Shown here: positions 7,529 through 50,803 of the stretch, piece after piece | How positions within the stretch are numbered: the stretch's first letter is position 1 | How the letters are laid out: each line of letters opens with the position of its first letter | NCBI RefSeq assembly: GCF_025452195.1 | Contig: NZ_CP104969.1 | Location: 1 to 64,000 of the forward strand | Reading direction: 5' to 3' | Length of the DNA: 64,000 bases | From: Phyllobacterium zundukense | Lineage (GTDB): Bacteria; Pseudomonadota; Alphaproteobacteria; Rhizobiales; Rhizobiaceae | Translations under genes and position numbers: made by a program | Notes under the pieces: generated by a model | Databases searched by the model: none | Seen by the model: the letters and a program-made list of their open reading frames with translations, nothing else | Told to the model about the DNA's origin: nothing

Positions 7529-8702
7529 CTACTTTGCAGCCGCCAATCCTGGATCCGGCTGCTTCTCAAACGTCTTGATTTCCTTGTTGAAGTAGACGCC
7601 GTCAGCTCCCTTCGATACTTCACGCAGATAGATGTTCTGGGTTATGTGGCGCGTTTCCGGATCGATCGAGACCGGACCACGCGGACTTTCCCACGTGAGG
7701 CCTTTGACCGCATCAACTGCCTTCTGCGCATCCTGCTTGCCGCCGGTCGCTTCGATCATCTTGCTGATGACATACATGCCATCATAGGCGCCGACCGAAG
7801 GGAACGAGAGTTCAGCCGGGTTGCCGATAGCCTTCTGGGCGGCGGCGACAAATGCCTTGTTCTCCGGTGAATTGTGCGCCAGCGAATAATGGAACGTCGT
7901 CAGGATGCCGAGGCCCGCATCGCCAATCGCCGGCAGATCGGATTCCTGTGTCAGGTCGCCCGGCGCGAGAAACTGGATGCCCGCCTGCTTCAGACCGTTC
8001 TCGTTGTAGGCCTTGACGAAACCGAGCGTGGTTGGGCCCGACGGCAGGAAGGCAAAGACCGCCTGTGCCCCGGAATTGCGCACCCGCTGCATCACCGGGC
8101 TGAAATCATTGGTCGACAGCGGCATGCGGATGGATCTCGACAACCTTGCCGCCTTCTTTCTCGAACGTCGTCTTGAACGCGTTTTCCGCATCGACGCCCG
8201 GGCCGTAATCGCTGACGACTGTAATTGCTTTCTCCACACCCCGTTCACGCGCGATCTTCGCCATCGGTGCGGAGGTCTGCCATGTGGTGAAGGAAGTGCG
8301 GACAACCAGCGGGCTCTTGGTGACGATGGCCGACGTCGCCGCGTTCATGATGACCATCGGCACATTCGCCTGCTTGAGCAGCGGCGTGACCGCCATGGCG
8401 TCCGGGGTGAAATAGAAGCCGGCGAGATATTGCACGCCTTCCTTGACCACCAGTTCCTGCGCCAATGCCTTCGACTGGGCCGGGTCGGCCTGCGGCACAT
8501 CCCGGTAGAGGATTTCAATCGTGTTCTCGCCGACCTTGTCACCATGGGTTGCAATATAGGCATCGATGCCCGCCTTGAAGTTTTTACCCTGTATCGCGAA
8601 TGGTCCCGAGAAGGGTCCGACAACGCCAATCTTGATGACTTCGGCATAGGCGCTTGCACTCATCAGAATTGATGCAGCGACGGCCAGAATGAGCTTTTTC
8701 AT
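7529..8702 (-). pseudogene. ABC transporter solute-binding protein (Peripla_BP_6, LivK/PcaM-like), broken by a 1-base frameshift
   Basis: Read as one gene it starts at the ATG at 8702 with a signal peptide (MKKLILAVAASILMSASAYA, then EVIKIGVVGP), the usual start of branched-chain or aromatic acid binding proteins. After about 190 codons the frame breaks. The N-terminal frame stops near 8106, while the C-terminal half (IRMPLSTNDFSPVMQRV onward to the stop at 7529) continues in another frame. The total length is 3n+1, consistent with one extra base, which I place within 8132-8140 (GGATCTCGA). With it removed the protein is about 390 residues, normal for the family. The lesion is either a real inactivation or a sequencing error; see findings. 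First gene of the transporter operon, next to pcaB. Confidence 0.85.
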
Positions 8703-8849
8703 GGTTCCTCCCTCAATCGAAAATGGCTTTTTCAGAACATTGCACACGACCTGCAGTTTCCGAAGCAGGAATGAAACGAAAAGATGCAATTCTTACGCAA
8801 GACCGAACGACTCCCCTGCAAGAAATGTCGATTCTGGCGCAAGTTTTTC

Positions 8850-8878
8850 CACTCGCAATTGCATTTTAGTTGCGTGTG
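8850..8878. repeat. Inverted repeat in the pcaB to solute-binding gene gap
   Basis: Arms CACTCGCAA (8850-8858) and TTGCGTGTG (8870-8878) pair at 8 of 9 positions around an 11-base spacer. It lies 8 bases past the pcaB stop and about 150 bases upstream of the solute-binding gene. The same CGCAAG word recurs nearby (about 8800-8812 and 8837-8843). It could be a weak terminator for pcaB (no U-tract follows) or an operator for the transporter. No clear PcaQ-type box was seen in this 183-base gap. Confidence 0.35.
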
Positions 8879-8885
8879 GTTGACG

Positions 8886-9942
8886 TCACGCCTTGCCAAA
8901 GCTCTCAATCGAACCAAGCAGGCTACCAGCCGAACGCAATGTGGTCGTCGTCGTTGCAACCATGGATGGCAATATCATCCACTCCAAAGTCCATGCCGCG
9001 CCCGAACGTTCCTGCTCATGGACCAAGGCGTGATGCATCCCGGAAACCTGCGTGGCATTGTAACGCGCGAGCGCAACCAGAAGTTCAGCAAGGACCGGAT
9101 TTTGCTTGTGCGGCATCGCCGATGATTTGCCGCCACCACTTATTTTGATCTCAGTCGAGCCTTGTGCGAGAAGCGCAATGTCCTGGCCGATCTTGCCGAG
9201 GGAGCCGGAAATAAGCGATAAAAAGTCAGCAAATTCAACGATGATGTCGCGCTGGCTGTGCCATTGCGGCGTATCGTGGAGGCCGAGCAATGCCGCCATT
9301 CGCTTGCGAACCGCCGGTCCTTTATCCCCCAGTTTCTCCAGCGTTCCTGCCGCTCCGCCGAACTGGATCACCGGGAAATCGAGCTTCAATATATCGAGGC
9401 GCTTGCGGTGACGCAGCAGCGGCGTGCGCCAGGATCTCGATACGGTCCCTGACCGTTATCGGGATGGCCGCCTGCATGCGGGTATGCCCCATCAAGCCAT
9501 TGTTCCCAAACGTCTTTTCAAGTTGATCCAGCTCGGCGATGATATCGGACAATCCGGTTTCGAGGCGTGTCATTACCGGCTTCAGCCGGATCATCAGGCT
9601 CGTATCGATGACGTCCTGGCTGGTCGCTCCGAGATGCAGTGACGCGCGGTGCTCCTGCCGAACAATCTCGCGCAATTGCCGGATAAGTTCCGGGACAACG
9701 ACACCATCCAATGCAACCGCCAACTTTAGCGCGTCCATGTCGGGTGAAAAAGCCTGGCACGCCTTCTCGATCGCCTCCGCTGCCGCAATTTCTATAATAT
9801 TTTCAGTGGCTTGCGCCTTGGCCAAAGCGCTTTCGAACTGAAGCATTGCCGCAATATCGCTCTCCGCCGAGAACCATTGCGCTGCTTCTTCACCGCCAAT
9901 CAAACCGGACAGAAACGAATGATCGAAGGGAGAAATACTCAT
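8886..9942 (-). pseudogene. pcaB: pcaB, 3-carboxy-cis,cis-muconate cycloisomerase, broken by a 1-base frameshift
   Basis: The enzyme cyclises 3-carboxy-cis,cis-muconate to 4-carboxymuconolactone, the second ring-cleavage pathway step. The N-terminal frame (from the ATG at 9942) carries GATSQDVIDTS and runs to about DRIEI. The C-terminal frame carries FPVIQFGGAAGTLEKLG and the fumarase/aspartase superfamily signature around SSAMPHKQNP. Between them, removing one base at 9432-9440 (GGATCTCGA) restores a continuous I-E-S-W-R-T-P-L-L-R-H. The total length is 3n+1. The repaired protein is about 351 residues, typical of PcaB. It lies 3 bases after pcaG in the pcaDCHGB operon. Whether the break is biological is uncertain. 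Confidence 0.87.
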
Positions 9943-9945
9943 CGC

Positions 9946-10560
9946 TTACACATCAAAGAAGATCGTTTCCTTGTCGCCTTGCAGATAGATATCAAAGACA
10001 TAGCTCGATCCATCGCGTTTCGCGATCAGCGTCGGGACGCGATTGCGATGCTCGATGCGTTGCAGGATCGGGTCCTTGTCATTCGCCTCTTTCTCGTCGT
10101 CGAAATAGATCCGTGTTTGCAACCCTATGTTGATCCCCCGCGCTACGATCCAGACCGTGACATGCGGCGCCATCATCCGCCCGTCCTTGAAGGGAACCTG
10201 ACCCGGCTTAACGGTTTCAAAGCGATATTCGGCCGTCTCCATGTCCGTCGGGCAGCGTCCCCACCCGGTAAAATTGGGATCGACGGTGCCGCGCAACTCG
10301 GATGGACTGTTGTAGAGCCCCTTGCTGTCGGCCTGCCATATCTCAAGCAAGGCGTCACGCAATGGCGTCCCGGTGCCGTCGAAAACCCGCCCACGGAGGG
10401 TAATTCGCTCGCCCAGCGTTTTGTCATTGACCATTGAGATACCAAGATCGCTCTCGTAAACACCTGTAATCTCACAGAAATTCGGCGTGCAGCCGATATG
10501 GACGTAAGGTCCCGCTGTCTGCGACGGCGTTTCTTTGAGGTAACCCAATTGTTGCACCAT
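9946..10560 (-). CDS. pcaG: Protocatechuate 3,4-dioxygenase alpha subunit
   Basis: A 204-residue intradiol dioxygenase subunit. It contains TPSQTAGPYVHIG near the N-terminus, the GRVFDGTGTPLRDALLEIWQAD beta-barrel segment, and GRCPTD, which mark the PcaG alpha chain. The alpha chain lacks the iron ligands and forms the active site pocket together with PcaH. The enzyme opens protocatechuate between the two hydroxyls to 3-carboxy-cis,cis-muconate. The start overlaps the pcaH stop by one base (TGATG), indicating translational coupling. Confidence 0.95.
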   Translation of the reverse strand: MVQQLGYLKETPSQTAGPYVHIGCTPNFCEITGVYESDLGISMVNDKTLGERITLRGRVFDGTGTPLRDALLEIWQADSKGLYNSPSELRGTVDPNFTGWGRCPTDMETAEYRFETVKPGQVPFKDGRMMAPHVTVWIVARGINIGLQTRIYFDDEKEANDKDPILQRIEHRNRVPTLIAKRDGSSYVFDIYLQGDKETIFFDV

Positions 10561-11300
10561 CAGTTGCCCTCCATGCGGTTTTCGAACAGAGTCGAGCGGC
10601 GGCCGCGCAACACGATATCGAATTTATAGGCACGCGCATCCATCGGAATGGTGTTGTTCATATCGAGCGCCGCGATGAGCTGTTCTATTGCTGCCTTGTC
10701 CGGAATGGATTTGACGATCGGGCAATTCCAGATCATCGGATCGCCCTCGAAGTACATCTGGGTAATCAACCTCTGCGCGAAACCGTGGCCGAATACCGAG
10801 AAGTGGATATGCGCCGGGCGCCAGTCATTCACGCCGTTCGGCCAAGGATATGCCCCCGGCTTGACCGTGCGAAAACGGTAGTAGCCGTCCTCGTCGGTGA
10901 TGGTACGGCCACATCCGCCAAAATTGGGATCGAGCGCCGCAAGATATCCCTCGCGCTTGTGCCGATAGCGTCCGCCGGCATTGGCCTGCCAGAATTCCAG
11001 GAGTGCGCCGGCAACCCCCTTGCCGCGCTCGTCTACAACTCTGCCGTGAACAATAATGCGCTGCCCGATCGCGCTCTCGCCGGGCTGCGCATAATTGTAG
11101 ATGAGATCGGCATCGAGCTCGCCCAGCATCGAATGGCCGAACACCGGCCCGGTGATCTCCGAGAGTGTATTATCGAATGAAATCAACGCTCTCTGCGGCG
11201 AACGCACGACGCTCGTCTTGTACTCTGGCGTATAGGCTGGCGGGTGCCACTGCCTGTCCCGCTGAAAGAATGCGCCGGTTTCCGGCTTCCTGTTGGACAT
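10560..11300 (-). CDS. pcaH: Protocatechuate 3,4-dioxygenase beta subunit
   Basis: A 246-residue protein starting [12 protein letters not shown]. It holds the catalytic non-heme Fe(III) site: the [17 protein letters not shown] segment with tyrosine ligands, and [11 protein letters not shown] with the histidine ligands, as known for PcaH. The RAKI-like N-terminal and [20 protein letters not shown] segments are also typical. A longer frame extends upstream, but this ATG matches family starts and leaves the short 13-base gap to pcaC. It acts with PcaG in the cytoplasm as an (alpha-beta)n oligomer. Confidence 0.95.
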
Positions 11301-11313
11301 TGCGGGCCTCCCG

Positions 11314-11721
11314 TCAGGCTGTCTTTTCGGCCGCAGCGAGGTCTTTATAGATCTGCTTCGCCAATTTAATCGCATGGTTGGCCGCCGGAACACCCGCATA
11401 GATTGCAACGTGCAGCAGTGCCTCGCAAATATCATCCTGAGTCGCGCCAGAGTTCGCGGTCGCCTTGATATGCATGACCAATTCCTCGTCCTGGCCCAAT
11501 GCCGCCAACAGCGCGATGGTCACAATCGAGCGCTGCCGCTTCGTCCAGCCTGGCCGCGACCAGACATGCCCCCAGGCAGCTTCAGTGATAAGCTCTTGAA
11601 ATGGCTTGTCAAAGTCCGTCTTGTTCGCCTCGGCGCGATCAACATGCCCATCGCCGAGGACGATCCGGCGTGTTGCCATGCCTTCGGCATAGCGACGGGA
11701 AGGAACGTCTGCAGACGTCAT
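11314..11721 (-). CDS. pcaC: 4-carboxymuconolactone decarboxylase
   Basis: A 135-residue protein of the AhpD-like carboxymuconolactone decarboxylase family, with the segment TWSRPGW-like ([23 protein letters not shown]) and [15 protein letters not shown]. It removes CO2 from 4-carboxymuconolactone to give beta-ketoadipate enol-lactone. The start ATG at 11721 overlaps the pcaD stop (ATGA), which fixes the start even though the frame stays open upstream. Here PcaC and PcaD are separate proteins, not the PcaL fusion. Confidence 0.94.
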
Positions 11722-12524
11722 GCTTTCTCTCCAAGTTGGAACTCGTCGATGAACGCTCGTATCACCGCCGTCACCGCCTCCGGCTGCTCCACGCAGGGAA
11801 TATGTCCGGCATCCTTGATCACCTCGTAACGTGAACGAGGAATGAGCTTCGCCAGCGAAAGCACAACTTCCGGTGGCGTCGACCCATCCTGATCCCCGAC
11901 GATGCAAATGGTCGGGACCGCGATGCGCGAGGCTTCGGTTGTAAAATCGGCATCGCGCAACGCAGCACACGTTCCGATATACCCTCCGATGGCCTGGCGG
12001 GTCAGCATATTGCGATACCCGGCAAGTTCGTCGCGGCGCTGCTTGTGGAAGGGTGGAGTGAACCATTTTTCGAGCACGCCATCCGCAATGGCTTCAATGC
12101 CGCCTTGCTCAAGCGCCGCGATGCGGGCAGCCCACATCTCCGCCGTGCCGATCTTATGGGCGGTATCGCAAAGGATCAGCGCACGCACCAGATCCGGCCG
12201 CACCGCATAGAGCCCTTGTGCCACCAGCCCGCCAACCGACAGGCCACAGATAATCGCGTTCCTGACCTCAAGATAATCAAGGAGGCCTGCAAGGTCAGCG
12301 GTGTGACCATCGATCGAGTAGGGCGTCGTACCAATATCCGAAAGACCATGTCCGCGCATATCATACGTCACGATGGCGAAATCACCGACGAGCCGAAGGA
12401 TTACGTCGCGCCAGATACGGAAGTCGGTCCCGAGCGAATTGGCAAAGACCAGTACAGGCTTGCCCTCCGGTGCGCCGATCAATTGATAGTGCAGTGTTAC
12501 GCCATTGATAGAAACGAATTGCAC
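11718..12524 (-). CDS. pcaD: 3-oxoadipate enol-lactonase
   Basis: An alpha/beta hydrolase of about 268 residues. The nucleophile elbow is GLSVGG, the acid lies in GDQDG and the histidine in DAGHIP. It hydrolyses beta-ketoadipate enol-lactone to beta-ketoadipate. I chose the GTG at 12524: GGGAGG lies 5 bases upstream and the protein then begins VQFVSINGVTLHY, like other PcaD starts; no ATG fits. It is the first gene of pcaDCHGB, divergent from pcaQ, with a PcaQ-type box in between. Confidence 0.94.
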   Translation of the reverse strand: MQFVSINGVTLHYQLIGAPEGKPVLVFANSLGTDFRIWRDVILRLVGDFAIVTYDMRGHGLSDIGTTPYSIDGHTADLAGLLDYLEVRNAIICGLSVGGLVAQGLYAVRPDLVRALILCDTAHKIGTAEMWAARIAALEQGGIEAIADGVLEKWFTPPFHKQRRDELAGYRNMLTRQAIGGYIGTCAALRDADFTTEASRIAVPTICIVGDQDGSTPPEVVLSLAKLIPRSRYEVIKDAGHIPCVEQPEAVTAVIRAFIDEFQLGEKA

Positions 12525-12554
12525 AGAAGCCTCCCATTCAATAGACCACCTTGG

Positions 12555-12572
12555 ATTATCCAACTGGTTAGG
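12555..12572. promoter_or_regulatory. Candidate PcaQ-binding box between pcaQ and pcaD
   Basis: The sequence attatccaactggttagg contains TTATCC-N4-GGTTAG. From memory, the PcaQ site in Sinorhizobium and Agrobacterium is ATAACC-N4-GGTTAA, so spacing and most arm bases agree. It lies about 30 bases upstream of the pcaD start and 50 upstream of pcaQ, where a LysR activator would sit. Confidence 0.6.
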
Positions 12573-12621
12573 TAAAATGATATTCTATCGCATTCTCTTA
12601 ACTGATGGGTTATGAAATGCC

Positions 12622-13545
12622 ATGATCGACAGTCGTATCAAATTTCGCCACCTGCAAACTTTTTTGGAAGTCGCACGTCAGAAGAGCGTGATGAAGGCGG
12701 CAGCTATTCTTCATATCAGTCAACCGGCTGTCACCAAAACAATCCGTGAAATGGAAAACGAGCTTGGCGTCGCCGTATTCGAGCGTGACGGCCGCGGCAT
12801 CAGGATCACGCGCTATGGCGAGGTGTTCCTGCGCCATGCCGGCGCTGCCATCACGGCATTGCGCCAAGGCATTGATTCCGTTTCCAATGAACGATCGGGC
12901 GAGGGCATCCCCATCCGCATTGGCGCTTTACCGACGGTGTGCACCCGCGTGATGCCGCAGGCCATCAGTTTGTTTTTGCAAGAGAAAACGCAAAGTCGCA
13001 TCAAGATTGTTACGGGCGAAAACGCGGTCCTTTTGGAGCAGCTTCGTCTCGGCGATCTCGATCTTGTCGTTGGCCGCCTTGCAGCCCCTGAGAAAATGAC
13101 GGGGTTCTCCTTCGAACATCTCTATTCCGAGCAGGTGGTTTTCGCCGTCAGCGCCAGCCATCCGCTCTTGAACTCACAAGAGGATATCTTTTCGCGTCTC
13201 GCCGAATTTCCCATTCTCATGCCAACCAGGGCATCGATTATCCGGCCGTTCGTCGACCGCTTTCTCATTGCCAACGGGGTAGCCGCTTTGCCTACCCAAA
13301 TCGAGACGGTATCGGACGCATTCGGCCGTGCTTTTGTTCGCTCCAGTAGTGCGGTCTGGATCATCTCATCGGGCGTTGTCGCCGATGATGTCGACGATGG
13401 GAGTTTGGCGCTTTTACCCATAGACACAAGCGAAACGCGTGGACCGGTAGGTCTTACGATGCGTGCTGACATAACGCCGTCACTACCGCTGATGATCCTG
13501 ATGCAGACTATCCGCGAAGCAGCAACTGAAGGGTCACCAAACTAG
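12622..13545 (+). CDS. pcaQ: PcaQ, LysR-family activator of the protocatechuate branch
   Basis: A 307-residue LysR-type regulator. An N-terminal winged helix-turn-helix (residues about 5-65, with HISQPAVTKTIREMENELGVAVFERDGRG) is followed by a substrate-binding co-inducer domain. In rhizobia PcaQ activates pcaDCHGB with beta-carboxymuconate as co-inducer. The divergent position to pcaD and the box between them support the same role here. The 3' end overlaps the convergent pcaR stop by 3 bases. Confidence 0.93.
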   Translation: MIDSRIKFRHLQTFLEVARQKSVMKAAAILHISQPAVTKTIREMENELGVAVFERDGRGIRITRYGEVFLRHAGAAITALRQGIDSVSNERSGEGIPIRIGALPTVCTRVMPQAISLFLQEKTQSRIKIVTGENAVLLEQLRLGDLDLVVGRLAAPEKMTGFSFEHLYSEQVVFAVSASHPLLNSQEDIFSRLAEFPILMPTRASIIRPFVDRFLIANGVAALPTQIETVSDAFGRAFVRSSSAVWIISSGVVADDVDDGSLALLPIDTSETRGPVGLTMRADITPSLPLMILMQTIREAATEGSPN

Positions 13546-14297
13546 AGCAGCAGGCCCGCAAGCATATCGCGAGTTGATTGCATCACCGGCAGGTAGGTTG
13601 CAACCATTTCATCAACAGTAACCCTCGGCGCCTGCGCACCGACGTTAAGTGCGGCAATGGTGGTTCCACGCATATTGCGTACCGGGATGGCAATCGAACA
13701 GAGACCAATCTCCAGTTCCTGATCGATGACGGCATATCCCTGCTCGCGTATCAGTTGCAACTCAGCCATCAAGTCGGGAATCGTCGTTTTTGTATTCGGC
13801 GTGTTCGCCTTGCGGTTGCTATTCTCCAGGACGCCCCTCGCATCGCCTTCATTCATTGCGGCGAGCAAGACTCGCCCCATGGACGAGCAATAGGCAGGCA
13901 ACCGGCTTCCGGGATTGAGATTGATCGACATGACCCGCTTATGCGATGCCCGGGCGATATAGACGATCTCGTTACCATCGAGGACGGAAGCCGATGCGCT
14001 TTCGCCGGTCTTTTCCGACAGTTGATCGAGAAAAGGTTGGAGAAGGCGGGGCAGGGGAGTCGCTGTAAGATAGGAATGACCAAGACGGAGTATTCGCGGC
14101 GATAGCGAGAAGAATTTTCCGTCGTAATCGGCATAGCCGAGTTGTGCCAAGGTCAAGAGACAACGTCGGGCGGTTGCACGTTCGAGGCCGGTAATCCTCG
14201 AGATATCCGTGATTGAAAGACGCGGATTTGCCGCGTCGAATGCCTCGATTACCGATAGGCCCCTGGCAAAACCACCGATGAAGTCTGTTTCTCGCAT
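13542..14297 (-). CDS. pcaR: PcaR, IclR-family regulator of pcaIJF
   Basis: A 251-residue IclR-family protein starting MRETDFIGGFARGLSVIEAF. It has an N-terminal winged helix (ITDISRITGLERATARRCLLTL) and a C-terminal effector domain with the family segment YAVIDQELEIGLCSIAIPV. IclR regulators of this type (PcaR, PobR, PcaU) respond to beta-ketoadipate or related acids. It is divergent from pcaIJF with a matching palindrome in the gap. I picked the ATG at 14297; the frame extends to 14381 but would cover the operator. Confidence 0.93.
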   Translation of the reverse strand: MRETDFIGGFARGLSVIEAFDAANPRLSITDISRITGLERATARRCLLTLAQLGYADYDGKFFSLSPRILRLGHSYLTATPLPRLLQPFLDQLSEKTGESASASVLDGNEIVYIARASHKRVMSINLNPGSRLPAYCSSMGRVLLAAMNEGDARGVLENSNRKANTPNTKTTIPDLMAELQLIREQGYAVIDQELEIGLCSIAIPVRNMRGTTIAALNVGAQAPRVTVDEMVATYLPVMQSTRDMLAGLLL

Positions 14298-14315
14298 GCT
14301 CAACCTTAGCACGCT

Positions 14316-14334
14316 TTGTGCGATATACGAACAA
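14316..14334. promoter_or_regulatory. Candidate PcaR operator in the pcaR-pcaI gap
   Basis: The inverted repeat ttgtgcgatatacgaacaa lies 18 bases upstream of the pcaR start and about 85 upstream of pcaI. Its reverse strand core GTTCGTATATCGCAC differs only in the central bases from GTTCGATAATCGCAC, which I recall as the PcaR site of Pseudomonas putida. A second related half site (aacgcacaaa) follows at about 14344. It probably serves both divergent promoters. Confidence 0.65.
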
Positions 14335-14419
14335 AAATCAAATAACGCACAAAAGATTTGACCTTCGAACCAATGAAGCACTAATCAAAAGATGGAGAAT
14401 TCGAGACAGGGAGAGAAAT

Positions 14420-15280
14420 GTGGCCCGGATTTGCACGCTTTCCGAAGCGATTGAAGAGAATGTCAGGGACGGCGATTCCATTGCGATGGAGGGCTTCACC
14501 CACCTGATCCCCTATGCGGCCGGGCACGAAATCATCCGGCAGGATCGCAGGGAGCTTTTTCTCATCCGGATGACGCCAGACCTTATCTACGATCAGTTGA
14601 TCGGCGTCGGCGTGGCACGCGGTATGAAATTCTCCTGGGGTGGCAATCCAGGAGTTGGCTCGTTGCACCGTTTTCGCGATGCAGTCGAGAACCAATGGCC
14701 ACGCCCGCTCGAAATCGAGGAGCATTCGCACGCCGCCATGGCAAACGCCTATGAGGCTGGGGCGGCAAACCTGCCATTCGCCATGCTCCGCGGGTATATC
14801 GGCGCGGACCTTGCGAAGGTTAATCCGAACATCAAATCGATTACCTGCCCGTTCACCGGCGAAGTCCTTGCGGCGGTGCCGTCGATTTGACCTGACGTGT
14901 CGATTATCCACGCCCAGCGCGCAGACCGCAAAGGCAACGTGCTGATCGAAGGCATCACCGGCGTCCAAAAAGAAGCTGTCCTTGCAGCCAAGCGCTCGAT
15001 CGTCACGGTCGAAGAAATCGTCGATGAACTCGATCCGCCATCGCCCAATGCAGTGGTTCTGCCAACATGGGCCGTCAGCTCCGTTGTTCATGTACCCGGC
15101 GGTGCGTTTCCGTCCTATGCGCACGGTTATTATCCGCGCTCCAACGCCTTTTACGTTGCCTGGGACAAGATCGCCCGTGACCGCGAAAGTTTCACAGCTT
15201 GGATCAAGGAACATGTTCGTGGCGGAAAGCCCGAAGATTTCGCCCGCCATGTCGGCAAGCGTTCTGCAAAAGCAGCGTAA
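14420..15280 (+). pseudogene. pcaI: pcaI, 3-oxoadipate CoA-transferase alpha subunit, with an in-frame TGA
   Basis: PcaI with PcaJ moves CoA from succinyl-CoA to beta-ketoadipate. The frame starts at a GTG (14420) behind GGGAG, giving VARICTLSEAIEENVRDGD. It is open to 15280 except for TGA at 14888-14890 between VPSI and PDVSIIHAQRADRKGN. PcaI proteins have arginine there (RPDV), so CGA has become TGA by one C-to-T change. The frame is otherwise unbroken and conserved on both sides: 286 codons, normal length. Either a fresh nonsense mutation or a base-calling error; the undamaged codon would complete a GATTC (GANTC) site. Confidence 0.85.
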
Positions 15281-15291
15281 GGAGTATCGTC

Positions 15292-16065
15292 ATGTCGATT
15301 GAATTTACACCAACAGAGATGATGACGATCGCTGCAGCCCGCGCTTTGACCAATGATGACGTGTGTTTCGTCGGCATCGGCGCGCCATCGGCAGCATGTA
15401 ACGTTGCGCGGCTTACCCACGCGCCGGATATCACACTAATCTACGAAAGCGGCACGATCGGTACCAAACCTGACGTCCTGCCGCTTTCGATCGGCGATGG
15501 TGAACTGTGCGATACCGCCTTGTGCACTGTTTCAGTCCCTGAGATGTTCCGCTACTGGTTGCAGGGTGGACGCATTACCACAGGCTTCCTAGGCGGCGCG
15601 CAGATCGACCGATTCGCCAATCTGAACACGACCGTCGTCGGTGACTATGACAGGCCGAAAGTACGCCTGCCGGGTGGTGGTGGCGCCCCCGAGATCGCCA
15701 GCAATTGCAGCCAGATCTATATAACCATGGCGCTCAACAAGCGGGGTTTCGTCGACCACCTCGACTTCATTACGTCTATGGGGCATGGCGAGGGCGGCGA
15801 TCATCGGGCGCGGCTTGGGATGAAAACCAAGGGTCCGACACGCGTTATCACTGACCTGTGCATATTCGAGCCCGACCCCGCAACCAAGGAATTGACGGTC
15901 GTTTCGAGCCATCCAGGTGTGAGCCGTGCGACGATCGAAGAGAATTGTGGTTGGCCGGTTCGCTTTGCCGAGACAGTCGCGGAAACTCCGGCGCCGACGA
16001 CAACCGAAATCTCCGTGCTCCGCGACATCAACGCCCGCACCAAGAAAGCACATGAGGCCGCCTGA
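15292..16065 (+). CDS. pcaJ: 3-oxoadipate CoA-transferase beta subunit
   Basis: A 257-residue family I CoA-transferase beta chain starting MSIEFTPTEMM, with AAGGAG 7 bases before the ATG. The catalytic glutamate motif is in IYESGTIG, and GGGGAPEIA forms the oxyanion/CoA loop region. It pairs with PcaI, whose gene ends 11 bases upstream. The stop overlaps the pcaF start (TGATG), so the three genes are translated as a unit. Confidence 0.95.
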   Translation: MSIEFTPTEMMTIAAARALTNDDVCFVGIGAPSAACNVARLTHAPDITLIYESGTIGTKPDVLPLSIGDGELCDTALCTVSVPEMFRYWLQGGRITTGFLGGAQIDRFANLNTTVVGDYDRPKVRLPGGGGAPEIASNCSQIYITMALNKRGFVDHLDFITSMGHGEGGDHRARLGMKTKGPTRVITDLCIFEPDPATKELTVVSSHPGVSRATIEENCGWPVRFAETVAETPAPTTTEISVLRDINARTKKAHEAA

Positions 16066-17270
16066 TGACCGAAGTTTACATCTGCGATTATATACGCACG
16101 CCCATCGGCCGCTTTGGCGGAGCCCTGGCTTCCGTTCGCGCCGATGATCTTGGCGCGATTCCGTTGAAGACGCTGATCGAACGCAACAAGCGTGTCGATT
16201 GGGAAGCCATCGACGAAGTGATTTACGGTTGCGCCAACCAGGCTGGCGAAGACAATCGCAATGTGGCGCGCATGGCACTGCTGCTCGCCGGGCTTCCAGT
16301 GAGCGTACCCGGAACGACCATGAACCGCCTGTGCGGTTCGGGCATGGATGCCGTCATTACCGCCGCCCGCGCGATCAAGGCTGGCGAAATCGAACTTGCG
16401 ATCGCCGGCGGCGTCGAATCCATGTCTCGTGCTCCTTTTGTAATGCCGAAAGCAGAAGGTGCATTCTCGCGCCATGCGGAAATCCATGACACGACGATCG
16501 GCTGGCGTTTCGTCAATCCGGTTATGCAGGCGCAATATGGCGCCGATTCAATGCCGGAAACCGGTGAGAACGTTGCCGAGGACTTCAATGTATCGCGTGC
16601 AGATCAGGATGCGTTTGCCGTGCGATCCCAGCACAAAGCCGGCGCGGCAATAGCGAACGGTCGCCTTGCCCGTGAAATCACGCCGGTTACGATCCAGCAG
16701 CGAACAGGCGATGCAATCCTTGTTGATCGGGATGAACATCCGCGCCCCCACACCACAATCGAGCAACTGGCGAAACTCCCGACGCCGTTCCGTAAAGGCG
16801 GGTCGGTTACGGCAGGCAATGCGTCTGGCGTCAATGACGGTGCGGCTGCGCTGATTGTCGCTTCCGAAGCCGCCTTGAAGAAATATGGCCTGACGCCCAT
16901 GGCCCGCATCGCCAGTGGTGCAACTGCTGGCGTACCTCCCCGGATCATGGGTGTCGGGCCCATCGCGGCTACGCAAAAACTCTGCGCGCGCCTTGGCGTT
17001 TCGCCGCAAGATTTCGATATCATCGAACTCAACGAGGCGTTTGCCTCGCAGGGACTCGCGACACTTCGCGCGCTCGGCATTGCCGACGATGCCGAGTTCG
17101 TCAATCCGAATGGTGGCGCTATAGCCTTGGGTCATCCACTTGGCATGAGCGGTGCCCGCATAACAGGCACCGCCGCGCTCGAACTCAATCTGCGTGGCGC
17201 GAAACGCGCACTTGCCACCATGTGTATTGGTGTCGGGCAAGGGATTGCCGTGGCACTCGAGAGGGTTTGA
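16065..17270 (+). CDS. pcaF: 3-oxoadipyl-CoA thiolase
   Basis: A 401-residue thiolase, the last step of the beta-ketoadipate pathway: beta-ketoadipyl-CoA plus CoA gives succinyl-CoA and acetyl-CoA. It shows the thiolase signatures: NRLCGSGMDAV with the acyl-accepting cysteine (about residue 90), the NPNGGAIALGHPLGMSGAR histidine segment, and the C-terminal CIGVGQG cysteine. The start VYICDYIRTPIGRFGGAL is typical of PcaF. It closes the pcaIJF operon and converges with the next minus-strand gene. Confidence 0.95.
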   Translation: MTEVYICDYIRTPIGRFGGALASVRADDLGAIPLKTLIERNKRVDWEAIDEVIYGCANQAGEDNRNVARMALLLAGLPVSVPGTTMNRLCGSGMDAVITAARAIKAGEIELAIAGGVESMSRAPFVMPKAEGAFSRHAEIHDTTIGWRFVNPVMQAQYGADSMPETGENVAEDFNVSRADQDAFAVRSQHKAGAAIANGRLAREITPVTIQQRTGDAILVDRDEHPRPHTTIEQLAKLPTPFRKGGSVTAGNASGVNDGAAALIVASEAALKKYGLTPMARIASGATAGVPPRIMGVGPIAATQKLCARLGVSPQDFDIIELNEAFASQGLATLRALGIADDAEFVNPNGGAIALGHPLGMSGARITGTAALELNLRGAKRALATMCIGVGQGIAVALERV

Positions 17271-17293
17271 TCGGACGATTCGGCGCGGGTTTG

Positions 17294-19063
17294 CTACTTG
17301 GATTTGGCTGTACCAGCTTGGCGCGTTTTTTGTGCACGTAGCCGTGCCAGGGTGTTCTCTGCCCATTGCCAATCCGGCGCAAGTTCGGTGCTTCGGACTG
17401 CAGCGTCGATAGCTTTGTCGCGTTGGCCGTTCACCTCGTAGAGTTGCGATCTTAGCATGTAGACTTCCGCGCGTTCACGTGCCTGGAAGAGTGTTTCGAG
17501 CAGGCGATCTGTGGCAATCAGACCCTGTTCCGGATTGGTCTTGCTGCGAACGCGAAGGTTGGCAAGCTTCAGCAGCGGCCAGGTCCATTCGGGCCTCGCA
17601 TCGGACGCACGCACAAACGCTTCAGCAGCATCTTCGATATTGTTCAAAGCTTCATGGCAGCGCCCGAGCAACTGCCAAGCATCGGACGAATCCGGTCGGC
17701 GGGCAATGTATTCGCGCAAGGCATCAATGCAGGGCTCATATTTCTGTTGCCGGAACAGGACCTGCGCGAGCTGATAGTTCCACCAATCGACGCTGCGATC
17801 GAGTTCGATGGCTTTGTGCAGTTGCGCTTCAGCCTCCTCAGGGTGTTCCAGCCGCATCAGGGTCAAGGCCAGTTGATGCCGCGAGCGCGCATTCCATGGC
17901 TCGGAGCTGACCGCACGTTCCGCGTAAATGCGCGCTTCATCGAGCTTCTCACCAAGCCGGGACAATTCGACCGAGACCGTGTGCTGTGCCTCAGGATTGT
18001 CCGGATGTCGGTTTTTCAGCTCTGCAACAAGATCGGGAGGGACGGCTTTGCCGCTATGTGCGGACAACAGTGCCTGGTAGACAGCGCGAACCGGGAAGAT
18101 TGCCGGATCGATGCTGGCAGCTTGTTGTGTTGCGAACGCCAAATCTTCCTTCGACAGAAGCTTCAGCTTGGTGCGAACCACCGAAGCATAGGTGAAGCGC
18201 GGCGTATCGATGGGTGGCTCGATCAAGAAGCGTTCGACGAATTGCGACAGAACAACATCCGGCTGGTAGGCTTCGATCAACTCGCGATCAAATGATTTGC
18301 CGTAGACATAGACGAGCGTGCTGAAACTCTCCTTGAGGAACGGCAACAGGTTGCCGCCAAAGGAATCGCCAAACATTACGCAGCGCGGCAGTGTCGTGTC
18401 CTTGTTGACAAAAACCCTGATCCTTCCGCGGTTCGGAATGCGGTTGTCGAAGGCGAGGCGGCCAGCGGCGCCTTCGATGCGGGCAGACAAAGTGGGCGCC
18501 GAGACAGGTGGTTCGAACTTGATACCCAGATCACCGATATAGGAGACCTCTTCAAATGCCACGCGCGAGCCTTCGACCCGCAGCGGTTCGATGCCACTAT
18601 TTGAAAGGCCTGCGCAAAAGGCCTGATAGCCGATATAAGCCCCAAATCCGCTCCAGTGCGTATCACTTTTCGGATAGGTCAATCCTTGCATTTTCCCCGC
18701 ACGGATCGCCTCAAGAGGATAAATAATTTTCCGTGCGCGCTGCGGACCAAGGGCAGCCATGATCTGGTGGATGGGGCGTTGTTCGGCAATTTCCACCCAG
18801 TCCGGAAGTTGTTCCGAATAAACAAGCTCCTTGTTCGGAGCGACGAACATCAGATGTTGAGCACCGACAGAAGCTACATATTGATCGCGTTCAAGGATCA
18901 GTTTTCGCCAAGCGTCAACACCCTGCTGACCCAGCAAATGACGGCCAGTGATCTGGTCGATAACGCGATTTGAATCATGGTCGAGAAAGATCCAGCCATC
19001 CTTGCCCAGGAGATATTTCTTGCTTTTGTCAGCGCGTGACGTGGAAACGAAATCATCACTCAT
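17294..19063 (-). CDS. AlgX/AlgJ-like SGNH-fold protein with C-terminal TPR repeats (predicted polysaccharide O-acetylation)
   Basis: A 589-residue protein. Residues about 1-330 resemble the SGNH-hydrolase-like domain of alginate acetylation proteins AlgX/AlgJ: SDTHW at 133-137 (the D-x-H pair) and GDSFGGN at 232-238 (the catalytic serine loop). Residues about 370-585 are TPR-like helices. No signal peptide is evident, which is unusual for AlgX/J. The start at 19063 has GGAGG and overlaps the GH16 stop (ATGA). It may add or transfer acetyl groups onto the polysaccharide made by this cluster; no MBOAT partner (AlgI type) is in view. Function is inferred. Confidence 0.72.
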   Translation of the reverse strand: MSDDFVSTSRADKSKKYLLGKDGWIFLDHDSNRVIDQITGRHLLGQQGVDAWRKLILERDQYVASVGAQHLMFVAPNKELVYSEQLPDWVEIAEQRPIHQIMAALGPQRARKIIYPLEAIRAGKMQGLTYPKSDTHWSGFGAYIGYQAFCAGLSNSGIEPLRVEGSRVAFEEVSYIGDLGIKFEPPVSAPTLSARIEGAAGRLAFDNRIPNRGRIRVFVNKDTTLPRCVMFGDSFGGNLLPFLKESFSTLVYVYGKSFDRELIEAYQPDVVLSQFVERFLIEPPIDTPRFTYASVVRTKLKLLSKEDLAFATQQAASIDPAIFPVRAVYQALLSAHSGKAVPPDLVAELKNRHPDNPEAQHTVSVELSRLGEKLDEARIYAERAVSSEPWNARSRHQLALTLMRLEHPEEAEAQLHKAIELDRSVDWWNYQLAQVLFRQQKYEPCIDALREYIARRPDSSDAWQLLGRCHEALNNIEDAAEAFVRASDARPEWTWPLLKLANLRVRSKTNPEQGLIATDRLLETLFQARERAEVYMLRSQLYEVNGQRDKAIDAAVRSTELAPDWQWAENTLARLRAQKTRQAGTAKSK

Positions 19064-19899
19064 GAACACCTCCAGAGCGGCACGTCCTGCCACTCGCTGT
19101 TTTGGAATACGCGAATGTTCTTGACCGAGGTCGCCGCGCCATCCACATCGCCGTCATCCTTACCGGCGAAGGACGCGACCGCATTGCTGAACAGAAGCTG
19201 CGCAGGCGTGTGTGCGAAGGTGTTGCCGACCTCGTAAATTTTCCGGTCGTCAAAGAAGAACTGGAACCGATCCTTGCTCCACAGCATGCCATAGCGATGG
19301 AAAGCATCGGCCAGTTTCAAGCGCGGGCGGTAGGTCTTGGACAAAACCTGCCTGTCAGGTAGCCAGCGACGCGCCGTCACTTGAACCGAATTTGGGTACT
19401 TGGCTTCTGCCACGTCGAGCTCAAAGCGGGTATCGCCCTCACTCTCGCGCACGGAGGTAAGCCAGAACGCGTTGTTGACGCCGGGCTCATTGGCGATCTT
19501 CATTTCACACTCGAAATAACCGTAGCATTGGCGAAAATCGCGCGTTCGCACATACCCGCCGCTGAAAGGCCGCTTGTCATTCAGCTTGCCTGTATTGCGG
19601 CCAAGTTTCAATGAAAGCCCGGCACCCGAAATCGCAACATTCCCGGGTATCCGGACGCTCCTTGTCTCTCCGCCGCTGTCACTAACCTTGATCCAGCGTT
19701 GATCGAAGCCGGCATTGTCGGTGAAATCGTCATTGAACGAGAGTTGCCATTTGCCCTGCGCGCGTTGGAGCGGAGCGGGAATATCCGAGCAAAGCGCGCG
19801 AGCAAGTGCAGGCCGCGCCAGCAATCCAGCCGAAGCAATCCCCAAGCCAGCAAGGCTCAGGAAGGAACGTCGGCTGAATTGCGCGCGGCTCCGCGTCAT
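19060..19899 (-). CDS. Tat-exported glycoside hydrolase family 16 protein
   Basis: A 279-residue protein with a twin-arginine signal (SRRSFLSLAGLG, residues 9-20; likely cleavage near ALA). The GH16 catalytic motif ExDxxE is present as ELDVAE (E160, D162, E165), with FSGGYVRTR and YGYFECEMKIA upstream as in glucanases and EPS glycanases of this family. It probably cuts or trims a beta-linked polysaccharide in the periplasm or outside the cell. Overlaps of 4 bases with both neighbours place it in the polysaccharide operon. Confidence 0.85.
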   Translation of the reverse strand: MTRSRAQFSRRSFLSLAGLGIASAGLLARPALARALCSDIPAPLQRAQGKWQLSFNDDFTDNAGFDQRWIKVSDSGGETRSVRIPGNVAISGAGLSLKLGRNTGKLNDKRPFSGGYVRTRDFRQCYGYFECEMKIANEPGVNNAFWLTSVRESEGDTRFELDVAEAKYPNSVQVTARRWLPDRQVLSKTYRPRLKLADAFHRYGMLWSKDRFQFFFDDRKIYEVGNTFAHTPAQLLFSNAVASFAGKDDGDVDGAATSVKNIRVFQNSEWQDVPLWRCS

Positions 19900-21236
19900 A
19901 CGGCCGCCTTGGCTGGAGCTTCCTTGAGGCTGCGCAGACTGGTTTCGAGATTCCAGGCGCGGTTGCGCAGGGTCTCCACCTCTCCAGTCATGAAATCGAT
20001 CTCGCTACGGAACCATGCCACAGCTTCATGGATGTTGTGCGGAACCTGAACCAGATTGGGTACCGAGAGCGGCTTGTCTGCAGGTGCAGCCACAGGCTTT
20101 GGCAGCACGTGGTTCAGCTTGTTCTCGGTCAGGAAGCGATGGTACTCGGCATAGTTCAGGCGATAGATATGCTGGACTTTGGAGAAGTCCGCCTTTTCAA
20201 GCATTTTCTCGAGATTGATCGGAAGATAGTCCTCGATCTCGATCGATGGAATTGCAAACAGCGAGGACAATTCCCGAATACGCGAATCATAGGTGAAGAA
20301 TACCGCCGGAATTCCCTGATGCAGGGCTATGACATTGCCGTGCAGCCGGAAACCAACCATTACATCCACATTTGCAGCTGCGTCGGCCGCCCATTCTTCG
20401 ATATCGAAAAAGGCGCTCATGCGATTGTTGAGCATCTCTTCCGCCTCGGCGTGGCCAAGCAGATTGAACTTGGTGAGGATGGCCTTGATGTTGTCCTGCT
20501 TCTCCTTGCCGGAGGAGAAAATAGCAAGCGTCTCTTCGCGTTCCCCCTGTGAGTATAGTTTACTCGAAGGGCGCTTGGCGACTGCATCGATCAGCGCGCG
20601 CTGCATCCGGTTAGTCTTGGTCGCGTTGCTGGCGTAGTCGGCAGAAAGATATTTATTTAGTGTCAGGCCGACGCGGGCAGTTGCCGGATCGATGGATTTG
20701 ATTGTGATCGAGGGGCGCAAGGAACGGTAGAAGCTCGGGCAGCCGATCACCCGCACATTCTTGATGCCGAGATCGTTGAATATCTCCGCGCTGTAGAAGC
20801 CACGAACGCCAATCGTCTCGCATTTGTCGGCGATGACCTTCCACGCCTCGACGGTACCTTTCGGCACGTTGAGCTTCTTGTATTTTCCGGCCTGTGCGCC
20901 GACGCCGATGGCGACGACCGGGCCTTTCAGCTTCTTGAGCAGTGGTACGACATGGGCGAGATCGACGGTTTCCGTCAGATAGTTCGAACCGCGCACGACC
21001 GTAGCATCATAAGTTCCGTCTTGCGGCCAGAGCTTTTCGTTGCCGGCGTGCGAGAACTGCACGTTCTTGATGTCGTCGTAGGCGAGGGCCTTGAGCGTGG
21101 CGTCATAGACGAGAACGTCGCCTGTGTTGATGCCACCCTTGTTGAAGGCCGCGAGCGGGTCCTCAAACTTCAAATAGGCGGATTTGTTGCCAGGCTTGAC
21201 CGCGGCGCCACCATTCAGAACAAAAAGTTTCTTCAT
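19896..21236 (-). CDS. Polysaccharide pyruvyl transferase family protein
   Basis: A 446-residue protein with the pyruvyl transferase fold of the WcaK/CsaB/ExoV group. It has an N-terminal NxGDxLVYDA-like segment (INTGDVLVYDA), central GVRGFYSAEIFNDLGIKNVRVIGCPS, and MVGFRLHGNVIALHQGIPAVFF. It would add a ketal-linked pyruvate to a sugar from phosphoenolpyruvate. The last 60 residues form a likely coiled-coil tail. GAGGAA precedes the ATG. A second member of the family lies at 27045-28232, about 30 percent alike by eye. Confidence 0.85.
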   Translation of the reverse strand: MKKLFVLNGGAAVKPGNKSAYLKFEDPLAAFNKGGINTGDVLVYDATLKALAYDDIKNVQFSHAGNEKLWPQDGTYDATVVRGSNYLTETVDLAHVVPLLKKLKGPVVAIGVGAQAGKYKKLNVPKGTVEAWKVIADKCETIGVRGFYSAEIFNDLGIKNVRVIGCPSFYRSLRPSITIKSIDPATARVGLTLNKYLSADYASNATKTNRMQRALIDAVAKRPSSKLYSQGEREETLAIFSSGKEKQDNIKAILTKFNLLGHAEAEEMLNNRMSAFFDIEEWAADAAANVDVMVGFRLHGNVIALHQGIPAVFFTYDSRIRELSSLFAIPSIEIEDYLPINLEKMLEKADFSKVQHIYRLNYAEYHRFLTENKLNHVLPKPVAAPADKPLSVPNLVQVPHNIHEAVAWFRSEIDFMTGEVETLRNRAWNLETSLRSLKEAPAKAAV

Positions 21237-21238
21237 CG

Positions 21239-24107
21239 TTAGTTCCTCAAATTATGCATGTGGGCTGATCCGGCAGCAGCGATCTGCAGCGGCCTGATTT
21301 CGGAAATTTCGTCACGCTGTTTTGGCGCTGCCTCGCGCGGAAACCGCTCGAAAGATGGTATCCGCTCGGGCGTGGTTGGCGCTGTCTGTTCGACAAGCTT
21401 CAGGGTTGTCTCCACCGGGAGGGTGGGAAGCCGGTCAGGGAACCATGACTTCAACTGGTTTACCAGCGGTTCGACACTGTATTCCCACATGAGGGAACCG
21501 CCGCGCTCTGCAGCAGCTTCAGACAGGCGGCGCAACGCAGCGGGATCCTCTGACAATGCCATGATGATTTCAGTCAGTTCCCGGCTGATAACGTTGTCGT
21601 CCGTCGACTCGATCAACAGGCCATCGACACCGTGGTCGATGAGTTCGCCGACCGCGCCGACTGACGTTGCGATCGGTACACAACCCAGCCGCTGAGCCTC
21701 GATAATGGTCAAGGGTGCACCTTCCCAGCGCGACGGCAACACCACCACGTCGGCCCAGGCGAAGGCTTTGTTCAGGTGCCTGCTCGAAAAGACTGGCGGT
21801 TCAACGTGAACGCCTATTTCGGCAAAACGTTCTTTCCACGAACCTCCGGCGCCAGCGTCCATGACATCGCTGCCAATGATTTTCCAATCGATCGGTGCTG
21901 AGCGATGGCGCAGGTCGCGAACAGAGGCGAACAATCGCTCGATACCCTTTTGAGCGTCGAGTCGACCCAGGAAAAGCACGTTCAGTCTGTCGCGTTGCGG
22001 CCTGTTGCGGCGCGCTGCGAGGATAGCTTCCTGGTCCTTGGAGGAAAGTGCATAACTTGCGGCATTTTGAATGTGCATGAGTTTGGCATCCGGGACGCCC
22101 ATGCCATGCAACCACTCCGCCATATCCCTGGAGCAGGTCAGGATCGTGTCATAGACGTGTTCGAAGGCGAGCGTGAGGTAAGGATGGCCCGCATCACGGC
22201 CCATTTTCGATTTATCGAGCACGTGAACATAGTTCAGCACCTTCATGCCGCGGCGGCGAAGTTCACCGAGCATGGAATTGACCGGGGCTGCCTGGTTGTT
22301 GATCACCACATCCAGCCCCGCGAGAAAGCCCATGATCAGCTCGGCCTTCGCGGCCTCGTCATGGCCCATCAACAAATCATGCCCGGCAAACTGATTGGGT
22401 CCGCCCCAGAGCGGGTAATCATCTGCGAGGAAGTTAACCGTCTTGAACACGCCATCGTTTTCGGGAATGCGATTATAAACCGGCTTGCCAAGCAGGAAGA
22501 GGTGGACTTCGCAGCCTGCGTTCTTCAATGCCTGCGCCACAGCATAGGCGACTTTTTCGACACCGCCGAAGCTGCCAATGGGTAAAAGAAATCCGACGCG
22601 CAGCGGATTGGACGCATGGGCGAGCCTTGGCATTACTGGCCTTGCGCCCACAGCATGCCGCAACAATTCGAAATAGCGGCTGCGATTGGGGAAATAGACG
22701 GAACGCCAGAGCCAGCGGTTTCTGGACTGCAATCGATAGCCGGAATCGCGCAGTGCCCCCAATGTAGCCAGAAGAGCATTGGTGGGGGACAAGGCAGTAC
22801 TTTGCATTTCTCTCGACGTGAATGGCCCGCTGATGACGATTTCGATCACATTGGGACTTGGAACCGGCTTGTGCAGTGAGCGCGTCCAATCGTCGGATGC
22901 GTCATCTGCGCAGGTTGAGAAAATATCGAATGTACACATCCAGCCGAAAGGCTTGTCGGCAAGTGGCTCCGCGTCGCTGATCTTGCGTATGTCAATGCCG
23001 ACCTTGGCGTTGTTCCGCTCGAAGCGAATGGCGACGAAATGGTGTTTTTGAGCAATCCGCTCGCCCAGCCACAGCAGATTGTGGATCAAGCCGAGTCGGG
23101 TCAGCGCCTCTCTGTGTGCCGCCGTCATCCACAATAGAAATGGTGGAACACCGAAGGTTTCCGGTTCAGCCTTCGCTGCCCAGAAACGCGTGACAAAATC
23201 CTCCAGGCTGCACTTGGCATGCTCGACTGTCGGATCGGTGAACAGATCCACCGCATAAGTGCCCATGCCGATCGCAGCATAGCGCGGCGTTTCCTCGTGT
23301 TCCCAGGCAAGCAGGGTTTCGGCGGCAAAGAGCTTCTTATGCTTCTGCCGGATGTAGGTCAGAATGCCTTCTCGCGTGCGATTTGAATCGCGCAGCATGC
23401 TCTCGGCGCGCTGACGGTATTCGAAACCGAAGAAAGGATAGTTCGCGCCAAGGAAGCCGCGCCCGATCGCCTGTAGCCAGAAGTCCCAGTCCTCAAAACC
23501 AGCTTTCATGCTCTCATCGAAACGCACGCCGGCATCGAGCATACGCCGCGAAACCAGACTGCCGGCTTCGCATATATTGTCGAAGGTCAGGTGCAGCAGG
23601 CGCGAGTACTGCGTTGTGTAATTTCCATTCCACTCGATGCCGAACTTGTCGATATTCGGATAGATCCAGTCGACCTTGTCGTCCGACTTCATGAATTCGA
23701 GAATGTCGCGGATCGCAGTGCGTGTAATGCGGTTGTCGGCGTCAAGAAAATAGACGGCTTCGAGATCCGGGAAATTGCGGAGCGCAAACTCGATGCCATA
23801 GTTACGGGCTGAACTCAGCCCTCCATTGGCCTTGCGCAGGTAAAAGACGTTTTCATGTGCCAGCGCATAAGTCCGCCCGATTTCGCCGGTTTCCGGATAG
23901 GGACAACCATCGTCGATGATCACTGCCGCGATACCGAAAGGCGCTTCCTGCGCCAAAACGGATCTCGACAGCTTCCGCGAGAAGCACAGAGTGCTTGTAG
24001 GCCGGTATGAGCACTGCCACCCTAGTCGGCGGTGGACTATCCGGGTCGATATCGGACGGCAATTGCGTGGCGATCTGTTCTCGGAGACGGCTGATCTGGT
24101 CCAGCAT
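21239..24107 (-). pseudogene. Large GT2-GT4 bifunctional glycosyltransferase, broken by a 1-base frameshift near its start
   Basis: Read as one gene from the ATG at 24107 it encodes about 955 residues: an N-terminal GT2 domain (RVAVLIPAYKHSVLLAEAV, then IIDDGCPYPETGE, ARNYGIEFAL, and AVYFLDADNR with the DxD-like metal motif) and a C-terminal GT4 domain (VGFLLPIGSFGGVEKVA, LNVLFLGRLDAQKGIERL, PSRWEGAPLTIIEAQRLGC). The frame breaks after about 45 codons. Removing one base in 23960-23968 (GGATCTCGA) gives the continuous E-A-V-E-S-V-L-A-Q-E. The total length is 3n+1. Alternatively translation could begin inside and lose the first GT2 strand. It should add two sugars during glycan assembly. Confidence 0.82.
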
Positions 24108-41392: not shown

Positions 41393-41411
41393 AATGACCA
41401 TGGAGACAAAG

Positions 41412-41985
41412 ATGATACAAAAACTTCTGCACGAAGGAGTGGAAGTCGAAACATCTATTGATGGATATTACGCCGCCGATTTCCCCGAAATTACAGCGGA
41501 AAAACAGGGACATAGACACCCAGTTCATACGGTCGTAGTTACACACTTCGAGCTAGCTCGAATGATCGAGAGAGTGAATCGCCGTTTCGCCAGTCTGCTC
41601 AGAACAGAAATGACGAAACTGGGGATTGAAGACGTCGGTCCGGCACAGGCGATGGTCCTGATGGCTATCGGCGACGTCGAACTTTCTGTTGGGGAATTGT
41701 TGGATCGGGGGCACTATGTCGGCTCAAATATTTCCTACTACCTGAAACAACTTGCTGATGGGGGTTACATCGACAGGGTCGCGTCCCAGCGGGACAAGCG
41801 GTCTGCAAGGATTCTGATTGACGGAAAAGGGAGAGCAGCTTTGCGCCAATCTGCGTGATGCTGGCGGGGCATACAATCGTGTTCTCGCCAGGGATGCCGA
41901 TGATCTCCGCAATCTCGAAATCGCGTTCCAGACGTTGCACAGGCTCGAACTGGTTTGGGGCAATGCCGCGCGTTATGGCATCTGA
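41412..41985 (+). pseudogene. MarR-family regulator, LdtR-like, frameshifted in the last third
   Basis: The winged-helix core (IGDVELSVGELLDRGHYVGSNISYYLKQLADGGYIDR) strongly recalls LdtR, a rhizobial MarR regulator of cell-envelope and stress genes. The start at 41412 has GGAG 6 bases upstream. The frame ends early at 41858 after DGKG. Removing one G from the GGG run near 41830 lets it continue as GEQLCANLRDAGGAYNRV to RLELVWGNAARYGI and stop at 41985, which restores the C-terminal dimer helix of the family (190 residues). The total length is 3n+1. It could be a homopolymer sequencing error or a true truncation. Confidence 0.72.
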
Positions 41986-44415: not shown

Positions 44416-44614
44416 TGGCTACTCCCCCTTGCGACGGTGGCTGGATAACAATATCGAACGCCTCGTTGACCGGTCGCAGCGGGCCGCAATCGTCAAGCGC
44501 ATAAGACAAGGCCGAGGGGGGCAGGTCGCAAGGCATCTTCAGTTTATGACCGCCCCCGCAAGCCGCGCACAATGCAGCGGCGAAAAGCACGACGCTAACC
44601 GGTATGATTCTCAC
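44402..44614 (-). CDS. Small lipoprotein of the T4SS (VirB7-like or entry-exclusion type)
   Basis: A protein of about 70 residues starting at a GTG (44614) that overlaps the virB4 stop (GTGA) and has GGAG 7 bases upstream. A short charged start, hydrophobic stretch and cysteine (ALCAACGGG) form a lipobox. Two more cysteines follow (MPCDLPPSALSYALDDCG). Position between virB4 and virB6 is where virB5 normally sits. Small lipoproteins here may be VirB7, which ties VirB9 to the outer membrane, or an Eex/TrbK entry-exclusion protein; I cannot decide. Confidence 0.7.
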   Translation of the reverse strand: MRIIPVSVVLFAAALCAACGGGHKLKMPCDLPPSALSYALDDCGPLRPVNEAFDIVIQPPSQGGVASGGS

Positions 44615-47043: not shown

Positions 47044-47339
47044 GCCTGGTCGCCCGGTGCATAGCTTTTGACGCCCCACAGGACTTTCGATTGTGGCGGG
47101 GTCCGCGCACCTTTGACCCGGAGAATATTGAAAATCTGCTCATCGCGCAGCGTCAGGAAATAGCCGAAACTATGGATCGGCAACACCAGGAATAGCGTGA
47201 AGAGGCTCTTGGTTGCGAGGAAGACCACCGCGGTAACCACCATGTTGAACATGGCATACATGTAGGGCACGCCAAAAAGCGTCGGTGCTCTCGTCAGGGC
47301 TTTGACCAGGGGGGTCATGTCCGGCGCATCCTCGGTCAT
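47040..47339 (-). CDS. virB3: VirB3 T4SS inner-membrane protein
   Basis: A 99-residue protein with two adjacent hydrophobic segments (about 28-62) and the family pattern L-x-x-A-L-T-R-A-P-T-L-F-G-V-P near the N-terminus. VirB3 works with VirB4 at the base of the channel. It begins 5 bases after the virB2 stop and overlaps virB4 by 4 bases. Confidence 0.9.
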   Translation of the reverse strand: MTEDAPDMTPLVKALTRAPTLFGVPYMYAMFNMVVTAVVFLATKSLFTLFLVLPIHSFGYFLTLRDEQIFNILRVKGARTPPQSKVLWGVKSYAPGDQA

Positions 47340-47344
47340 CTATT

Positions 47345-47641: not shown

Positions 47642-47645
47642 TGAA

Positions 47646-50802: not shown

Positions 50803-50803
50803 C

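Follow-up and report, generated by a model that had tools for sequence, protein, structure and literature searches.

Three minus-strand genes near the start of replicon C1 switch reading frame part-way through, and the question raised by this locus is whether the genes were broken by mutation or whether their frameshifts arose in sequencing and assembly. The genome (6,413,776 bases) is in five contigs, and the window, meaning the whole 64-kb stretch analysed here, opens contig C1 (394,220 bases). Among named relatives, Candidatus Phyllobacterium onerii gave the best match to a window protein (97%), ahead of other Phyllobacterium; the window's own record may be missing from this comparison. A second strain of the species was not found in a search that covered protein cluster representatives; the nearest representatives were 90–98% identical to the window's pieces. 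The plasmid collection gave no near-identical record, the best being in the 90–95% class over part and the best full place reaching 78.8%. The window was compared with four sister genomes (G031, G010, G008 and G002), which were 93–95% identical to it around the glycosyltransferase gene and 91–94% identical in long blocks.

Frame breaks in the window

As listed below, the points at which the three genes switch frame all lie in the word GGATCTCGA, as the original prediction had stated. It had overlooked a fourth break, in a MarR-family gene where the sisters' GGATTCGA has become GGATTCTGA, and had left out a native fourth copy of GGATCTCGA on the minus strand.

7529..8702, minus strand: ABC transporter solute-binding protein gene (Peripla_BP_6, from Pfam of the sister gene), in two frames
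8132..8140, plus strand: GGATCTCGA, frame break of the solute-binding protein gene; one base fewer in 4/4 sisters, three with GGATTCGA and one with CGATTCGA
8886..9942, minus strand: pcaB, 3-carboxy-cis,cis-muconate cycloisomerase gene, in two frames; sister gene with Lyase_1, named pcaB by its source
9432..9440, plus strand: GGATCTCGA, frame break of pcaB; GGATTCGA in 4/4 sisters
16414..16421, minus strand: intact GGATTCGA word
21239..24107, minus strand: glycosyltransferase gene (GT2 and GT4-type domains, from Pfam of the sister gene), broken about 46 codons after its start
23760..23768, minus strand: native GGATCTCGA in an open frame, without a break; common to 3/4 sisters
23960..23968, plus strand: GGATCTCGA, frame break of the two-domain glycosyltransferase gene; one base fewer in 4/4 sisters, three with GGATTCGA and one with GGATTCCA
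41394..41858, plus strand: MarR-family regulator gene (Pfam MarR_2), frame lost close to the C-terminal end; C-terminus unlike that of G008
41809..41817, plus strand: GGATTCTGA, fourth frame break; GGATTCGA in 4/4 sisters
58065..58072, minus strand: intact GGATTCGA word

Comparison with sister genomes, which had been proposed as a check, supported the prediction, since the insertions were absent from 4/4 sisters at each window site. Specifically, five one-base insertions in the window had no counterpart in any of the four sisters (8136, 9436, 23964, 41815 and 41221). The first four each break a gene, and at all four breaks the sisters, or most of them, have GGATTCGA. The fifth, a doubled T without GANTC, lies just 5′ of an ABC transporter gene's start codon.

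The surplus base had been taken to be a T added to GGACTCGA. However, none of the 12 sister words at the three GGATCTCGA break sites was GGACTCGA; ten were GGATTCGA, one was CGATTCGA and one was GGATTCCA, and GATTC was present in 12/12, indicating that the surplus base is a C between two Ts and that no T was added to GGACTCGA. The claim of a single surplus base at a GANTC site holds, the site being present with either source word. Note that GGATTCGA and GGACTCGA are translated identically at these sites (V/I-E-S) and are therefore indistinguishable at the protein level. GGACTCGA was seen at the first site in one more distant genus mate (Phyllobacterium, L012). Because GGACTCGA is absent from the sisters at the three sites, the original prediction had pointed to the wrong comparison in the intact TCGAGTCC at 43115; the relevant intact words are the GGATTCGA copies at 16414 and 58065. 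Six GGATTCGA words of G008 fall in the part of the window that aligns, and of these the four on the plus strand are altered here and the two on the minus strand are intact.

The number of GGATCTCGA words in the window was four, against a mean of 1.03 in 100 shuffles (one shuffle reached 4) and 1.07 expected from the 107 in the genome (Poisson P = 0.023). The count alone is thus mildly high, and it is the location of the words, not their number, that goes beyond chance.

The sister alignments also differed in larger blocks. G002, G008 and G010 lack about 1.6 kb at 54035–55607 in their syntenic stretch, their alignments halting and resuming at this point; the segment contains an ORF (54081–55514, minus strand) with weak helix-turn-helix matches, the best just under Pfam cut-offs, and is perhaps an insertion sequence. 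In addition, 44612–52548 was missing in G031, where 44611 and 52549 align next to each other on the contig.

The word along C1 and across the genome

C1 was aligned with G008 over 338,052 bases, in which 17 GGATTCGA words of G008 had a counterpart in C1. Five of these read GGATCTCGA in C1 (8132, 9432, 23960, 128301 and 360296), one read GGATTCTGA, eight were identical and three carried substitutions. Coding breaks were identified by a codon-phase test, which asks for each side of an indel whether the mismatches occupy third codon positions, with thresholds of at least five mismatches per side and 60 bases of open frame. The test returned eight uncompensated one-base breaks private to C1, five of them at a GGATTCGA-derived word, and none in G008 over the same aligned bases; it missed 41815, and further C1/G008 indels were not judged coding by it. 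With 41815 added, six of the nine coding breaks of C1 fell in the 17 GGATTCGA words (P = 3e-19), which upholds the prediction of one shared cause rather than chance. The other three, at C1:238730, 241722 and 244513 outside the window, lie away from the word and are ordinary pseudogenes or other errors. By strand, five GGATTCGA-derived words on C1 were broken and five intact on the plus strand, and one was broken and ten intact on the minus strand (P = 0.06); no flanks separating broken from intact words were seen by eye. Elsewhere on C1, an identical 17-base insertion context occurs twice, 387 bases apart (C1:148671 and 149058), in blocks that match overlapping G008 positions, which is likely a local duplication.

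The genome-wide survey took in 100 of the 107 GGATCTCGA places, with codon usage scored on both sides. By frame, 45 of the 100 were untestable, including the proven insertion at C1:360300, whereas among the 55 testable places 45 were unshifted and ten were shifted by +1 (four on C1 and six elsewhere). At random points (2252 testable) there were 33 shifts of +1 and 49 of +2, and at 11 control words (114 testable places) two and three, respectively. The single testable GGATTCTGA place was shifted, as expected (1/1). In two relatives no frame break was found at testable GGATCTCGA places (0/19 in G008 and 0/16 in G007), the test having drawn on 30 of 97 and 30 of 126 places, respectively.

Sister DNA (2/2 sisters) confirmed four of the six shifts outside C1, at C5:2321812, 2418234, 2946756 and 3179102. 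At C5:2946756 the sisters are one base shorter and read TCCAATCC or TCCAATCT, from which the older word at that site was inferred. The two further +1 shifts (L158 and L169) rest on the frame test, the sister stretch across the site being missing. Among weaker frame calls, L198, L216 and L204 proved native when compared with sisters and were rejected as insertions, and L161 and L220 had no sister stretch across the site. The 100 examined places thus include nine confirmed GGATCTCGA insertions, five on C1 and four on C5, the largest contig. Set beside 275 intact GGATTCGA words, 15 of them on C1, this amounts to 9/284 affected words (~3%), with 5/20 on C1 and 4/264 elsewhere (P = 1e-4).

The genes hit, as identified from the sisters' intact genes, have no common function. 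On C1 they encode the binding protein, PcaB, the glycosyltransferase, the MarR protein, a GntR/FCD regulator and a glutamine synthetase. The C5 genes code for a TPP enzyme, an HflK-type protein, a transport permease and an arginine-deiminase-like protein.

Word counts across the assembly, another check proposed with the original prediction, were 107 for GGATCTCGA, 145 for GGACTCGA, 275 for GGATTCGA and 33 for GGATTCTGA, and did not clearly separate this genome from its genus mates (19; 17 for GGATCTCGA). They fail to show the insertions because too few sites are affected. Note that GGACTCGA (145) and GGATTCTGA (33) were the highest of their genus-mate lists. No clear general excess of change at GANTC was found either: 16 of 81 GANTC words were changed, three of them by these insertions, as compared with 10–20% for control patterns.

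Source of the surplus base

One PF01555 protein was found in the genome, encoded at C5:3825047. It matched PF01555 (N6_N4_Mtase) with 230.9 bits and, C-terminally, RAMA (PF18755) with 59.9 bits, both above the cut-offs, and it aligned with positions 3–349 of the 350 of the NCBIfam CcrM model NF050803, scoring 640 bits against an equivalog cut-off of 830. By its domains the product is predicted to be CcrM-like, with the equivalog label not earned. GANTC is depleted in the window, with 122 observed against 332 in shuffles; such depletion is usual under CcrM. A second methyltransferase, of type I class (PF02384), is encoded at C2:406514, and no PF00145 cytosine methyltransferase was found in the genome.

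Most likely, the frameshifts are not mutations but consensus errors that a long-read assembly, probably a nanopore one, made at a single CcrM context. The original word would be GGATTCGA, whose GATTC is a GANTC site at which CcrM would produce N6-methyladenine in either strand. Base calling would often add one base within these eight letters, giving GGATCTCGA five times and GGATTCTGA once on C1, and the error would enter the contig wherever erroneous reads outvote correct ones. A C between two Ts is no ordinary slippage product. The original prediction of a nanopore miscall at GANTC is thereby retained in its probable cause, given the CcrM gene, the one base fewer in 4/4 sisters and published precedents, and amended in its source word and surplus base. 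Methylation of the sites, the platform and the role of methylation in the misreading are what we infer here; the number of contigs (five) suggests long reads. Against a consensus error stand the 275 GGATTCGA words that are intact, the excess on C1 and the want of any clear excess of change at other GANTC words. For Rhizobium, PMC8709438 reports that GANTC methylation depends on chromosomal position and cell state and that replicons differ in depth; differences of either kind may possibly be a reason for the cluster on C1.

An assembly or polishing error at GGATTCGA could also arise from the sequence context by itself or from another modification, with no part played by CcrM methylation. That one of many GANTC contexts is hit, and that the insertion at 41809–41817 falls just outside the GATTC pentamer, would suit an effect of context, and the type I class methyltransferase could supply another modification; yet GANTC is present in every word and a PF00145 enzyme was not found, and we regard this origin as unlikely. 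It appears quite improbable that the insertions are real, i.e., that a lineage-specific, sequence-directed addition of bases at CcrM sites in the GGATTCGA context disrupted some ten unrelated genes in the recent past, with the highest density on one replicon. Such a hotspot would account for the recurrence of one word at loci that are unrelated and spread over two contigs and both strands, and for a cluster on one replicon that a uniform misread does not predict. However, the sisters share the words and not the insertions, the two relatives gave no break in 35 testable places, and no mechanism is known to us by which a C would be placed between two Ts in a single 8-mer.

Were the genes ordinary pseudogenes, broken independently and alike in the word only through coincidence, the three C1 breaks without the word would be a parallel, but the concentration of six of nine coding breaks in 17 eight-base words effectively refutes this reading, to which we give very little credence. 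It is scarcely credible that a shared signal directs frameshifting which is programmed or tolerated: the identical word at each break is what this would require, but the sisters' frames are open with one base fewer, 45 of the 55 testable copies of GGATCTCGA in the genome leave the frame unshifted, and the word has no slippery run.

If the frameshifts are consensus errors, about ten genes, including pcaB and a glutamine synthetase, would be wrongly listed as pseudogenes, and the GGATTCGA/GGATCTCGA pair would offer a cheap check for long-read assemblies of CcrM bacteria before gene loss is accepted. Should the insertions prove real, they would mark something new, a hotspot that adds bases where the DNA is methylated.

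Comparison with known methylation-linked errors

The words GGATTCGA and GGATCTCGA were not found in the nanopore-error literature among the matches listed. Methylation-linked nanopore errors, including errors at GANTC in two alphaproteobacterial species, are described in PMC12392509. In the passages of that paper considered here, most methylated sites and motifs produce no error, failures are limited to specific motif occurrences, and an error is assembled where wrong reads outweigh right ones. Failure at a few percent of one hard word fits this account, although the rarity of errors at methylated motifs also counts against a consensus error here. These systems resemble the present one in having GANTC with a CcrM gene and in being affected at specific motif occurrences only; they differ in that just two GANTC-linked errors are given in those passages, as compared with nine confirmed insertions at one word here.

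In nanopore assemblies of agrobacteria, most substitution errors lie near methylated motifs such as GANTC (PMC12710330). As here, the host belongs to the Rhizobiales, the motif is GANTC and the errors persist in a finished assembly. However, the motif analysis in the portion of that paper considered mostly concerns substitutions, whereas here one base is inserted in one 8-base context and the platform is only presumed; that the published GANTC errors are mostly substitutions counts against a consensus error here. The modification-mediated errors in Listeria (PMC10687267), as far as the excerpted account goes, are also unlike those found here in being mismatches, in numbering thousands per genome and in involving other motifs, but they share with them that one motif per lineage accounts for the errors and that the errors were recognised through relatives.
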